From Salegentibacter sediminis (GTDB lineage Bacteria > Bacteroidota > Bacteroidia > Flavobacteriales > Flavobacteriaceae), in NCBI RefSeq assembly GCF_002078605.1, contig NZ_MSJR01000002.1:310001-374000 (forward strand): a stretch of DNA of 64,000 bases. Direction: 5' to 3'. Below are positions 49,370 through 52,797 of this stretch, piece by piece. Under the pieces are notes generated by a model. It was not told the origin of the DNA. It worked only from the letters and a program-made list of their open reading frames with translations, and searched no databases. The translations under genes were made by a program, and so were the position numbers. Each line of letters begins with the position of its first letter. The first letter of the stretch is position 1.

Positions 49370-50494
49370 ATGAAGCAGCGAGAAAAAATGCAGGGGCGGG
49401 GCTTTGTCTTCCGGAAATTTGAAGAAGAAACTAAAAGTCCTTTTGAAAATCTCTTTGAAATATTCAAGGAACTTATAACTCATACCTCCGGGGACCTGGA
49501 AGAAGCCCTGGATTGGCTTAAGCAACTGGATGAGGAATATAAGCTCACTACAGAAGATTATACTTTAGATGATTTTGTAGAAGACCTTAAAAAGAAAGGC
49601 TATATCAGGGAAGAGACAGATGATGGAGGAGGAATGAGTATCACCGCCAAAACCGAACGCGCTATAAGAAAGCAGGCCCTGGACCAAATCTTTGGAAAGT
49701 TAAAAAAAAACACTTCCGGAAATCATCGCACTAACTATACCGGTATCGGAGATGAACATACCGGCGATTTCAGGGATTATCAATACGGGGATTCCCTGGA
49801 CCGAATTTCTATGACAGAGAGTTTGCGCAATGCACAGATTCATCATGGGATTGAAAATTTTAATATGACCGAAGATGACCTGGTGGTAGAGGAAACTCAT
49901 TACAAATCTCAAATGAGTACAGTACTTATGATCGATATCAGTCATAGTATGATTCTCTATGGGGAAGATCGGATTACCCCGGCTAAAAAGGTTGCAATGG
50001 CCCTGGCAGAGCTCATTACTACACGCTATCCGAAAGATACCCTGGATATTATTGTCTTCGGAAATGACGCCTGGCAGGTTTCTATCGCTGATCTCCCATA
50101 TCTTAAAGTTGGTCCATACCATACAAATACCGTTGCCGGCTTGCAGTTGGCCATGGATCTGCTGCGCAGGAAACGCAATACCAATAAACAAATCTTTATG
50201 ATCACCGACGGGAAACCGAGTTGTGTTCGCGAACGGGATGGCACCTATTACAAGAATCCAATGGGGCTGGATCCATTTATTGTAGATAAATGTTACAATA
50301 TGGCTCAACAGGCTAGGAAATTAAAGATTCCTATCACCACCTTTATGATCGCCCAGGATCCCTACTTGATGCAATTCGTGAGAGAATTCACTTATGCCAA
50401 TCAAGGGAAAGCTTTTTATACCGGGATTAAAGGCCTGGGGGAAATGATCTTTGAAGATTATGAAACGAATAGAAAAAAGAGGATAAGAGGATAA
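49370..50494 (+). CDS. VWA-domain protein (partner of MoxR-type AAA)
   Basis: A 374-aa protein. The C-terminal von Willebrand A domain has the MIDAS DISHS (residues 189-193), an RRKRNTNKQIFMITDGKPS stretch and a helical end. The N-terminal 170 residues are helical and acidic, ending with the FNMTEDDLVVEE segment. Such proteins pair with AAA ATPases as in RavA/ViaA or the Mg-chelatase BchI/BchD system. The AAA gene lies at 51334; the space between holds a DUF559 gene and repeats. No metal-chelatase partner (BchH/CobN) is seen, so a chaperone role is more likely than chelation. The sequence of its last 12 codons recurs twice downstream. Confidence 0.85.
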   Translation: MKQREKMQGRGFVFRKFEEETKSPFENLFEIFKELITHTSGDLEEALDWLKQLDEEYKLTTEDYTLDDFVEDLKKKGYIREETDDGGGMSITAKTERAIRKQALDQIFGKLKKNTSGNHRTNYTGIGDEHTGDFRDYQYGDSLDRISMTESLRNAQIHHGIENFNMTEDDLVVEETHYKSQMSTVLMIDISHSMILYGEDRITPAKKVAMALAELITTRYPKDTLDIIVFGNDAWQVSIADLPYLKVGPYHTNTVAGLQLAMDLLRRKRNTNKQIFMITDGKPSCVRERDGTYYKNPMGLDPFIVDKCYNMAQQARKLKIPITTFMIAQDPYLMQFVREFTYANQGKAFYTGIKGLGEMIFEDYETNRKKRIRG

Positions 50495-50560
50495 TTGATT
50501 TAGTCAAACTCCCCGTTTTGGGTTACCCCAAAACACCCCTCTTTATTTAAAGAGGGGAGC
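50453..50560 (+). repeat. Copy A: VWA 3' end plus hairpins
   Basis: A 108-base unit from GAAGATTATG (VWA codons) through its stop to GGGGAGC. It matches 51200-51307 at about 100 of 108 positions by eye. It contains the GTTTTGGGTTACCCCAAAAC palindrome and a CCCCTCTTT / AAAGAGGGG stem. Confidence 0.8.
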
Positions 50561-50566
50561 TTTTTT
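50536..50566 (+). terminator. Intrinsic terminator after the VWA gene
   Basis: CCCCTCTTT and AAAGAGGGG pair (9 bp) around ATTT, followed by AGC and six T. It ends the VWA message, which may uncouple it from the downstream AAA gene. Confidence 0.65.
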
Positions 50567-50584
50567 CATTTTATAATAATTGTT

Positions 50585-50950
50585 TTGAAAAAACAACAAA
50601 TTCATACCCGGTTGGATTTAAAGCGAAAGCGTAAGTTCCTTAGAGAAAATATGACTGCTGCTGAAGGTTTTCTGTGGAAATTTTTAAAAGCCAGGAAGTT
50701 TGTGGGAAAAAGGTTTACAAGACAGCACAGTATTGGAAATTATATTGTAGATTTTTATTGTGCTTCTGAAAAATTAATTATTGAACTGGATGGGGATGTT
50801 CACCTGAATAGCACTGCCGAGGAAAAGGATTTAAAACGCACTGAGTATTTGGAAGGTTTAGGCTTTAAGTTAATACGCTTTGAAAATAAAATGGTGTTCG
50901 ATGCACTACCTTCGGTATTAAAGGAAATTAGAGATAATTTTAAAAAATAA
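50585..50950 (+). CDS. DUF559-domain protein (Vsr/restriction-like nuclease fold)
   Basis: A 121-aa DUF559 protein. Motifs are TAAEGFLWKFLKARKFVGKRF, then FTRQHSIGNYIVDFYCASEKLIIELDG (landmarks: the D of VDFYC and the E of IELDG) and GFKLIRFENKMV. Family members adopt a PD-(D/E)XK-like nuclease fold related to Vsr. The start is a TTG at 50585, since the conserved region begins before the first ATG (50651). It is flanked on both sides by copies of the end of the VWA gene. A DNA role in moving or maintaining the repeat is inference. Confidence 0.85.
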   Translation: MKKQQIHTRLDLKRKRKFLRENMTAAEGFLWKFLKARKFVGKRFTRQHSIGNYIVDFYCASEKLIIELDGDVHLNSTAEEKDLKRTEYLEGLGFKLIRFENKMVFDALPSVLKEIRDNFKK

Positions 50951-50976
50951 AGATGGAGGATTAAATAAGAATACAT

Positions 50977-51069
50977 TATGAACCGAATAGAAAAAAGAGG
51001 ATAGAACAATCAAACTCCCTGTTTTGGTTTTTCAACCAAAACCTTCCCTCTTTGTCTTAAGAAGGGAGT
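50977..51069 (+). repeat. Copy B: diverged VWA tail plus hairpins
   Basis: 50977-51003 matches 50459-50485 at 26 of 27 positions (VWA codons near the stop). A diverged hairpin part follows, with GTTTTGGTT / AACCAAAAC arms and an AAGGGAG end. It starts 26 bases after the DUF559 stop. Confidence 0.7.
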
Positions 51070-51130
51070 CTCTTTAAGGCTTTGATCTGTTTTGATTGTT
51101 CTTAAATTAGGTTGATTTTAAAACTAACCA

Positions 51131-51190
51131 AGCTCCTCCCTTTTTTAAAGGGAGGTGGCTAGATTTCGATAGAAATTTAGACGGAGGGTT
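51131..51190. repeat. Compound hairpin repeat between copies B and C
   Basis: CCTCCCTTT pairs with AAAGGGAGG (9 bp, loop TTT, 51135-51155), followed by ATTTC-GATA-GAAAT (51163-51176) and an ACGGAGGG tail. It resembles widespread Bacteroidetes intergenic hairpins. Bases 51070-51130 show no gene. Confidence 0.6.
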
Positions 51191-51199
51191 TAATTTGGT

Positions 51200-51307
51200 G
51201 AAGATTATGAAACAAATAAGAAAAAGGAGATAAGAGGATAATTGATTTAGTTGAACTCCCCGTTTTGGGTTACCCCAAAACACCCCTCCTTATTTAAAGA
51301 GGGGAGC
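51200..51307 (+). repeat. Copy C: VWA 3' end plus hairpins
   Basis: A 108-base unit aligned without gaps to copy A. It keeps the reading frame and stop of the VWA tail (EDYETNKKKEIRG, then TAA). It lies 26 bases before the AAA gene start. Copy C has one mismatch in the terminator stem and lacks the T run, so it is a poorer terminator than A. Confidence 0.8.
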
Positions 51308-51333
51308 CTATCAAATTTAAAAAGATTAAGAAA

Positions 51334-52797
51334 ATGAAAATAGAAAACATAAAGACTTTAGGCGATTTAAAAAAATCAGGGTATAAGAGCAAAGGAATAA
51401 AAGAAGAACTTAGGCAGAACCTGCGAGAGAAAATAAAAAACGGAGAACCAACTTTTAAAGGTATTTACGGCTATGAATATACAGTAATTCCGGAGCTGGA
51501 GCGCGCTATACTTTCTAAGCATAATATCAATCTTTTAGGCTTGCGGGGTCAGGCCAAAACCCGGCTCGCTAGACTTATGGTGAATTTACTGGATGAATGG
51601 ATGCCCATAGTGGAAGGTTCAGAAATAAATGACGATCCCCTGAATCCTATTTCCAGGTACGCCAGGGAACTCATAAAGGAAAAAGGAGATGATACTCCCA
51701 TTTCATGGGTGAACAGGGAAGATCGATTTTTTGAAAAGCTGGCCACTCCGGATGTTACCGTAGCCGATTTAATAGGCGATGTAGATCCTATTAAAGCAGC
51801 AAATCTCAAGCTTAGTTATGCCGATGACAGGGTGATTCATTTCGGTATGATCCCACGTGCCAATCGCAGTATTTTTGTGATTAATGAACTTCCAGATCTG
51901 CAGGCGAGAATTCAGGTAGCATTGTTTAATATTCTGCAGGAAGGTGACATACAAATTCGCGGATTTAAGCTTAGGTTACCCCTGGATATGCAGTTTGTTT
52001 TCACCGCCAACCCCGAAGATTATACCAACCGCGGAAGCATTGTAACTCCCTTAAAAGACAGAATTGGCTCGCAGATTCTAACCCATTACCCCGATTCTAT
52101 TGAGGTTGCCAAAACCATTACCAAACAGGAAGCTAACCTGGATGAGGAACAGGAAAAAATGGTGCACGTGCCGGAATTGGCCAAAGATCTTTTGGAACAA
52201 ATCAGTTTTGAAGCACGTGAAAGTGAATTTATAGACGAGAAAAGCGGAATTAGTGCCAGGATGAGCATCACCGGTTATGAAAACCTACTCAGCACCGCAG
52301 AGCGCCGTAGCTTAAAAATTGGAGAAGATAAAACCACGCTGCGTTTCAGCGATTTTATGGGAGTGATCCCCAGTATAACAGGAAAGGTAGAACTGGTCTA
52401 TGAAGGGGAACAGGAAGGAGCAGCAGCCGTAGCTTTACAATTAATCGGCGAAGCGGTTAAAAGTTTGTTTCCTGAATATTTCCCTAAAATAGAGAAACTT
52501 CAGAAACCCGATGAAACCAGCCCATACGATGAGTTAGTAGAATGGTTCTTTGATCAAAGCGGATTTGAACTTCCGGATGAGATCTCAGAAAAAGAATATA
52601 GGGAAAAACTTGATTCCGTGCCGGCACTGGAAACTTTGGTGAAAAAATACCAGCCGGAGATTCCGGAGGAAGATAAATTATTTCTGAAAGAATTTTTGCT
52701 TTGGGGCTTGGTGGAATATAAGAAGTTAAGTAAACATCGTTTCAGTAAAGGGATTCAGTTTAAGGATCTCTATGGTTCCTACATCAGCGGAATCTAA
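51334..52797 (+). CDS. MoxR / Mg-chelatase-like AAA ATPase
   Basis: A 487-aa AAA+ protein with Walker A GLRGQAKT (69-76) and Walker B IFVINELPDL (about 181-190). TANPEDYTNRGSIVTPLKDRIGSQI follows as the sensor region, and the C-terminal half is helical. A long insertion between Walker A and B (about 90-150) is typical of this Bacteroidetes subtype. It should remodel targets together with the VWA protein at 49370. ATG at 51334 follows copy C by 26 bases. Confidence 0.85.
   Translation: MKIENIKTLGDLKKSGYKSKGIKEELRQNLREKIKNGEPTFKGIYGYEYTVIPELERAILSKHNINLLGLRGQAKTRLARLMVNLLDEWMPIVEGSEINDDPLNPISRYARELIKEKGDDTPISWVNREDRFFEKLATPDVTVADLIGDVDPIKAANLKLSYADDRVIHFGMIPRANRSIFVINELPDLQARIQVALFNILQEGDIQIRGFKLRLPLDMQFVFTANPEDYTNRGSIVTPLKDRIGSQILTHYPDSIEVAKTITKQEANLDEEQEKMVHVPELAKDLLEQISFEARESEFIDEKSGISARMSITGYENLLSTAERRSLKIGEDKTTLRFSDFMGVIPSITGKVELVYEGEQEGAAAVALQLIGEAVKSLFPEYFPKIEKLQKPDETSPYDELVEWFFDQSGFELPDEISEKEYREKLDSVPALETLVKKYQPEIPEEDKLFLKEFLLWGLVEYKKLSKHRFSKGIQFKDLYGSYISGI

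Follow-up and report, generated by a model that had tools for sequence, protein, structure and literature searches.

Why should a small nuclease gene sit between copies of the end of the gene next to it? In Salegentibacter sediminis (contig NZ_MSJR01000002.1, positions 310,001 to 374,000, a 64,000-nt stretch hereafter referred to as the window), a DUF559 gene separates a VWA-domain gene from an AAA ATPase gene, and the VWA 3′ end with its trailing hairpin is found around it three times. Comparing sequences across many DUF559 loci, we consider it probable that DUF559 and the palindromes underlying these hairpins form one genetic module, a nuclease with its cognate tripartite palindromes, which resembles the systems of repetitive extragenic palindromic elements and REP-associated tyrosine transposases (RAYT/REP) and uses an unrelated enzyme.

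We searched for the palindromes with R1, a covariance model trained on Bacteroidota from one copy per locus (33 training sequences). In the window, R1 yields seven matches up to E 1, all located at the palindromes of the three copies (A, B and C) and at an additional palindrome, P2. The parts of the locus are as follows.

49370..50494, + strand: VWA-domain gene, 374 aa, left neighbour (open reading frame; PF13519, E 6e-9)
50452..50494, + strand: native final 43 nt of the VWA gene including the stop, the beginning of copy A
50509..50558, − strand: copy A palindrome, class CTCCCCTC with foot CGGGGAG (R1 E 5e-9; outside the training set)
50585..50950, + strand: DUF559 gene, 121 aa, listed with a TTG start, nuclease-like fold (PF04480)
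50975..51003, + strand: copy B of the VWA 3′ end (97% identical to copy A over 29 nt)
51015..51068, − strand: copy B palindrome, decayed (R1 E 0.0055; outside the training set)
51133..51188, + strand: palindrome P2, class CTCCTCCC with foot CGGAGGG (R1 E 2e-13; one of the 33 training sequences)
51199..51241, + strand: copy C of the VWA 3′ end (sequence match to copy A)
51256..51305, − strand: copy C palindrome (R1 E 1.5e-8; outside the training set)
51334..52797, + strand: AAA ATPase gene, right neighbour (open reading frame; PF07728)

The first-pass annotation of this sequence had placed the DUF559 gene between two of three copies of the VWA 3′ end plus hairpin and had judged copies A and C to be gapless and about 93% identical. 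Sequence comparison confirms this arrangement, with copies starting at 50452, 50975 and 51199. Copy A (50452-50576) aligns without gaps to copy C (51199-51323) at 88% identity over 125 nt and at 93% across the first 109 nt; copy B (50975-51068) is shorter and decayed, with 73% identity. Because the first 43 nt of copy A are the VWA gene's own 3′ end, with its stop at 50494, copies B and C represent the duplicated gene end with hairpin, and the duplicate of the VWA end spans about 29 nt in B and 43 nt in C. P2, which the first-pass annotation had overlooked, lies between B and C and belongs to the same family as the three hairpins. Outside this locus, the best match to the gene-end and hairpin unit in the same genome reaches only E 0.03. 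The genome also carries a second DUF559 gene of another subtype (L040 1833-2228, contig C2), which is bracketed by a 124-nt hairpin repeat; three copies of this repeat are present, with the gene between the last two.

Bracketing by repeats is common among DUF559 genes. In a survey of all 61 loci, including 6 fused and 2 truncated genes, the 800-nt flanks on the left and right share a direct match of 50 bits or more in 34/61 DUF559 genes compared to 17/523 other genes in the same loci (Fisher 7e-26), and in 32/53 once the fused and truncated genes were removed. Both copies contain a C-polar palindrome by a strict test in 20 of the 34 bracketing pairs, indicating that many of the repeats belong to a recurring family, as opposed to being unique target sequence. 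At three loci (L124, L129 and L145), the bracketing repeats are not palindromes but 5′ ends of neighbouring paralogous genes, and a subtype-D DUF559 lies between copies of the downstream gene's 5′ end instead of hairpins. Scoring C-polar palindromes directly (within 250 nt; perfect arms of at least 8 and CCC in the 5′ arm), we found them on both sides of 49/119 DUF559 genes and of 0/853 other genes that lie 1.5 kb or more away within the same loci. Palindromes of the opposite polarity occur upstream of 2/119 and downstream of 0/119 DUF559 genes. This count covers 119 of 134 loci, after dropping genes outside 80-200 aa or too close to a contig end.

R1 gives the same picture in 80 loci from named genomes (900 kb), where 198 of its 224 matches fall within 700 nt of DUF559, a 55-fold density. 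Matches are present in 69/80 of these loci, in 48/59 of those that contributed no training sequence, and in 45/56 when L182, L198 and L240, which duplicate training loci, are also removed; 7 of the 80 repeat unnamed loci. Repeat type also tracks gene subtype. Subtypes were read from a tree without the 8 fused or truncated genes, and the subtype of DUF559 predicts which type of repeat flanks it in 44/50 loci (shuffles: mean 11, maximum 23), or in 41/50 before the exclusion of shared neighbours; the test used 50 of 53 loci, with 30 neighbour-sharing pairs excluded and L115, L116 and L152 unassigned. At the level of genomes, R1 is found in 18/18 with a subtype-A gene and in 11/131 others. Eleven of the 18 supplied training copies, and the remaining seven carry R1 in 7/7 cases (Fisher 2e-7). 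The 18 include G033, with the divergent L115/L116, and G040, with a broken gene; without these two, the counts are 16/16 versus 13/133.

The palindromes share a plan of stem 1, TG, a variable hairpin and a foot (CGGAGGG, CGGAAGGG or CGGGGAG). The strict form, CTCC-stem1-loop-stem1′-TG-hairpin2-foot, was found in 60 copies from 33/134 loci, and the stem class agrees with the foot class in 57/60 of these copies although the search left all combinations of the listed classes open. Selection relied on stem 1 and foot and ignored hairpin 2; nevertheless, at the five variable pairs of hairpin 2, both sides have changed with pairing kept in 13-19 of 33 sequences, while pairing is broken or gapped in 2-11. 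In an alignment of the elements, the feet are of the type CGG(A)GGG, and no GTAG end is present. A search of Rfam returned only sub-threshold lysM-TM7 matches (30.9 and 26.6 bits; gathering score 61.5). Some genomes (G094, G096, G120 and G129) hold many R1 copies, and the dispersed palindromes of G094 sit within larger repeats; R1 counts per genome rest on at most 39 scored candidates each.

The protein itself looks like a nuclease. The window protein matches DUF559 (PF04480) at 113 bits, against a cut-off of 20.6 (E 6e-33), and by profile it matches PDB 3hrl (E 4e-32) and 3r3p (E 2.6e-6). Foldseek with its AlphaFold2 structure (mean predicted local distance difference test score, pLDDT, 89.6) finds 3hrl, a DUF559 structure, and 3r3p, that of the homing endonuclease I-Bth0305I (E 4e-4); Vsr itself is absent among the 50 Foldseek matches listed. 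Residues E27, D56, E67, H73 and D82, which we take to form an EDxHD-type motif, are invariant among 37 aligned proteins, drawn from the 53 left after removing fused and truncated genes. DUF559 is thus predicted to adopt a small PD-(D/E)XK or Vsr-type nuclease fold with the conserved acidic and His residues present. PADLOC returned weak matches only. With the window protein as query (E 1e-5), matches are found in 2/50,697 phage and 39/72,556 plasmid records; as far as this query reaches, DUF559 is not a usual phage or plasmid gene. In the literature, the E. coli DUF559 protein YcjD picked up Vsr at an e-value of 1e-5 (PMC1189080), and the Caulobacter DUF559 protein VsrA is described as fully responsible for an SOS response in some mutant cells (PMC12907096), a role that fits an active nuclease.

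How did the gene arrive between VWA and AAA? Among 96 genomes with a VWA match, we fetched 30 VWA loci, one of which is that of the window's own genome. In 29/29 of the relatives read, AAA directly follows VWA with a gap of 4-308 nt and no DUF559 between them, and the splitting of this pair in the window, already remarked upon in the first-pass annotation, is best read as an insertion. The same annotation had named the lack of any single hairpin copy at the VWA end of empty sites as refuting its reading, and the hairpin is indeed not part of the empty site: in none of the 29 empty loci does the covariance model of the palindrome give a match with an E-value under 0.07. Two empty gaps, L053 and L058, contain other short palindromes without DUF559, possibly solitary elements.

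DUF559 does occupy the VWA-AAA gap in 2/80 loci from named genomes, and these two differ from one another. Salegentibacter lacus LM13S has a single palindrome on each side of DUF559, (−) towards VWA and (+) towards AAA, and lacks any copy of the VWA end. The gap of Flavivirga jejuensis contains five units, each a VWA end plus palindrome, at spacings of 266, 266, 265 and 506 nt; the first is native, identity to it ranges from 70 to 93% among the remaining four, and the last, longer spacing contains DUF559. Taken together, these loci indicate that DUF559 can insert without gene-end copies and that such copies recur at VWA in another genus; the five tandem VWA ends with palindromes make the copies look like by-products of array growth. 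The module is thereby in this gap in the window and two named relatives and absent from it in 29 others. Palindromes of one family surround DUF559 genes in many other genera too, which suggests that gene and repeats are one selfish or mobile unit.

Copies of a neighbouring gene's edge are enriched at DUF559, as a survey proposed in the first-pass annotation bears out, occurring in 11/114 DUF559 gaps (window included) and 1/225 control gaps, the latter not length-matched. That annotation had read the gene-end duplication as the cargo's route of entry and as an insertion logic that protects the upstream product. The S. lacus insertion speaks against the former, and the enrichment fits a by-product of array growth better than the latter. 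On sequence evidence, the locus is better read as one in which the hairpins go with DUF559 and the gene-end copies came later, arising in tandem arrays.

The surroundings of DUF559 vary widely, with 102 different neighbour contexts across 126 loci. Eight loci (L106, L112, L118, L125, L136, L193, L195 and L217) share a single gene context, which could be a preferred site or an old inherited insertion. Among 114 DUF559 loci, the gene lies on the same strand as both neighbours in 58, opposite to both in 17 and divergent in 5; this hints at DUF559 expression by read-through from co-oriented neighbours. The gene also occurs within others. From 13 plus 6 in-frame matches that we read, with one example of each confirmed by Pfam, DUF559 lies in frame inside leucyl-tRNA synthetase (LeuRS), MetH, RecG and an Eco57I/PglX-like methylase (L071, L095, L154 and L274) and is fused to the end of HemD, HisD and a PALP enzyme (L073, L077 and L153). 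By eye, four LeuRS inserts have palindromic sequence at each edge, and two RecG inserts have it at their 3′ edge. Since the LeuRS and RecG insert positions are common to several genera, these may be old inherited insertions.

Outside Flavobacteriia, we fetched 17 of the 39 plasmid records with DUF559, skipping Neisseria and near-duplicates, and analysed 16 in addition to E. coli H14 (L281); some gene ends were set by eye. The 16 loci (6 Cyanobacteria, 7 Alphaproteobacteria, 1 Gammaproteobacteria and 2 Deinococcota) have a C-polar palindrome (arms of at least 7) within 300 nt in 15 cases, on both sides in 9, at a density 12-fold over the remainder of these loci. The sixteenth, from Novosphingobium, has three R1 matches beside DUF559 (E 1.6e-8 to 4.5e-8), and in Photobacterium an R1-type array lies behind DUF559. 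In a Synechocystis plasmid (L280 2301-3420), DUF559 follows a short DUF1156 fragment, as if it had broken up that gene. The E. coli DUF559 gene, ycjD, has C-rich palindromes downstream; the hairpin upstream is AT-rich and of another kind. A 151-nt query containing the ycjD-downstream palindrome matches a median of four places per genome in 5365/5426 genomes, with some matches covering the fabI-side part only. In E. coli KE48, a palindrome copy is located behind tkt. By these sequence criteria, the association of DUF559 with palindromes is one that reaches Alpha- and Gammaproteobacteria, Cyanobacteria and Deinococcota.

We infer mobility and cleavage by DUF559 from these patterns and propose the following mechanism. 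The nuclease would recognise the folded palindrome and nick or cut there, and repair would copy the palindrome, and sometimes the gene too, into new sites. Breaks at palindromes would also enlarge local tandem arrays. Where the first palindrome abuts a gene end, the growing unit would take the last codons along, which could account both for copies B and C in the window and for the row of five units in Flavivirga. More tentatively, and at somewhat less than even likelihood, C-rich, REP-like palindromes may form a superfamily that crosses phyla, from Bacteroidota, Cyanobacteria and Deinococcota to Proteobacteria (with E. coli ycjD probably among them), and DUF559 may be the nuclease dedicated to mobilising it. 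It would then be a second, unrelated enzymatic solution to the problem solved by RAYT/REP, and one that also inserts itself in frame into genes, leucyl-tRNA synthetase and recG among them.

Several observations weigh against a module of this kind. In the window's own genome, there is no sign of dispersal: R1 has three matches at E 0.01, all confined to this locus, and one more elsewhere at E 0.06. Fourteen of the 34 bracketing pairs fail the strict C-polar test, the window's among them (a mismatch in copy C); the strict definition finds no C-polar palindrome on either flank of 27/119 DUF559 genes, most of which belong to subtypes B, C and D; and 11/80 named loci have no R1 match. R1 is also present in 11 genomes that have no subtype-A gene. 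The orientation of the nearest palindromes, counted in 76 of the 80 named loci, is mixed (12 (−,+), 14 (+,−), 6 (−,−) and 10 (+,+), the rest one-sided or none). This mixture rules out fixed terminal inverted repeats, though single loci such as L276 resemble that arrangement. In E. coli, the three ycjD-less strains we read carry an efflux operon in its place and not a clean empty site, and we therefore rejected this species as a source of empty sites (PMC12817139). Finally, the analysis is a comparison of sequences, in which no cleavage, binding or movement was observed.

Could the repeats instead be the product of the insertion itself? DUF559 would in that case have entered the VWA-AAA gap by duplicating a target of about 110 nt, leaving VWA intact. 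Long direct repeats do bracket DUF559 in the window and in the 34 of 61 surveyed genes, and gene-edge copies are enriched. The same-site insertion in S. lacus, without a VWA-end copy, led us to reject target duplication as the insertion mechanism; it is largely refuted unless the S. lacus copies were lost. The empty sites, which have no hairpin, and the bracketing pairs with a palindrome in both copies also argue against it, and we regard it as very unlikely. It is less improbable, but still unlikely, that a RAYT (Y1) transposase moves the palindromes, which would then be ordinary REP elements, and that DUF559 is a mere passenger settling in REP clusters. Mixed-orientation arrays like those seen here recall bacterial interspersed mosaic elements, and Y1_Tnp is present in 20/29 R1-positive genomes compared to 39/120 others, which counts against the DUF559-palindrome module as well. 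However, G120 and G129 hold 27 and 30 R1 copies with no Y1_Tnp match at E 0.001, and the sole Y1 match of the window's own genome is on contig C22, not the contig of this locus. Nor would a passenger be expected to predict its flank type by subtype or to be hugged by 198 of the 224 R1 matches in named loci.

DUF559 could also be a defence or repair nuclease, with hairpins that are under local selection as its terminators or expression controls. The predominance of DUF559 genes co-oriented with their neighbours is in line with this, but upstream copies, copies dispersed away from DUF559, the palindromic edges of in-frame inserts and the matching of subtypes would be left unexplained, making it a rather improbable account. 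We favour the pairing of a nuclease with its cognate palindromes over these explanations.

If DUF559 and the palindromes are a pair, one widespread class of the many short bacterial palindromes for which no enzyme is known gains, across several phyla, a candidate enzyme, and DUF559, a family known only as a domain of unknown function, gains a candidate substrate. The pairing also offers an explanation for the build-up of gene-end copies beside small nuclease genes, and ycjD of E. coli K-12 makes it testable in a laboratory strain. Literature searches of open-licence PMC papers found no title or abstract that describes a DUF559-palindrome pairing, and our claim of novelty is limited to that set.

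Features of the module recall several known systems. For restriction-modification genes, insertion with a long target duplication has been proposed, and there too a nuclease gene is bracketed by long direct repeats; here, a recurring family of palindromes makes up many of the repeats, and a same-site relative has no duplication. Rickettsia palindromic elements are palindromes inserted in frame within protein genes, whereas the in-frame insert described here encodes a nuclease domain. I-Bth0305I (PDB 3r3p) is similar to DUF559 in fold and profile. Its structure is labelled as a mobile intron protein; we noticed no intron at DUF559 loci, and none was searched for. The likeness to Vsr and PD-(D/E)XK nucleases is the YcjD match cited above.

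Palindromes with no enzyme of their own have been described previously. In PMC3733652, CGTC-tagged REPs are said to lack a dedicated transposase, and further untagged palindrome families are named besides them. We rejected CGTC-tagged REPs as the same elements: their stems are described there otherwise than those of the palindromes here, and the CGTC-REP core shows hardly any enrichment at DUF559 (4 in 184 kb nearby versus 29 in 1.70 Mb elsewhere, and none at the window's DUF559). The closest parallel is RAYT/REP, including the REPtron and REPIN, as presented in PMC3733652 and PMC3116915. The enzyme differs, being a DUF559 protein of PD-(D/E)XK type and not an HUH Y1 transposase, and no Y1 gene lies at the locus; the palindromes differ in having two stems and a C/G foot and no GTAG tag at their end. 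What the two share is the organization, in which a small nuclease gene stands beside its cognate palindromes, gene and repeat types are matched, the repeats form mixed-orientation clusters and copies are dispersed in some genomes, the window's own not being among them at E 0.01. Flanking by palindromes that match the gene's subtype, as in RAYT/REP, is what we find at DUF559.
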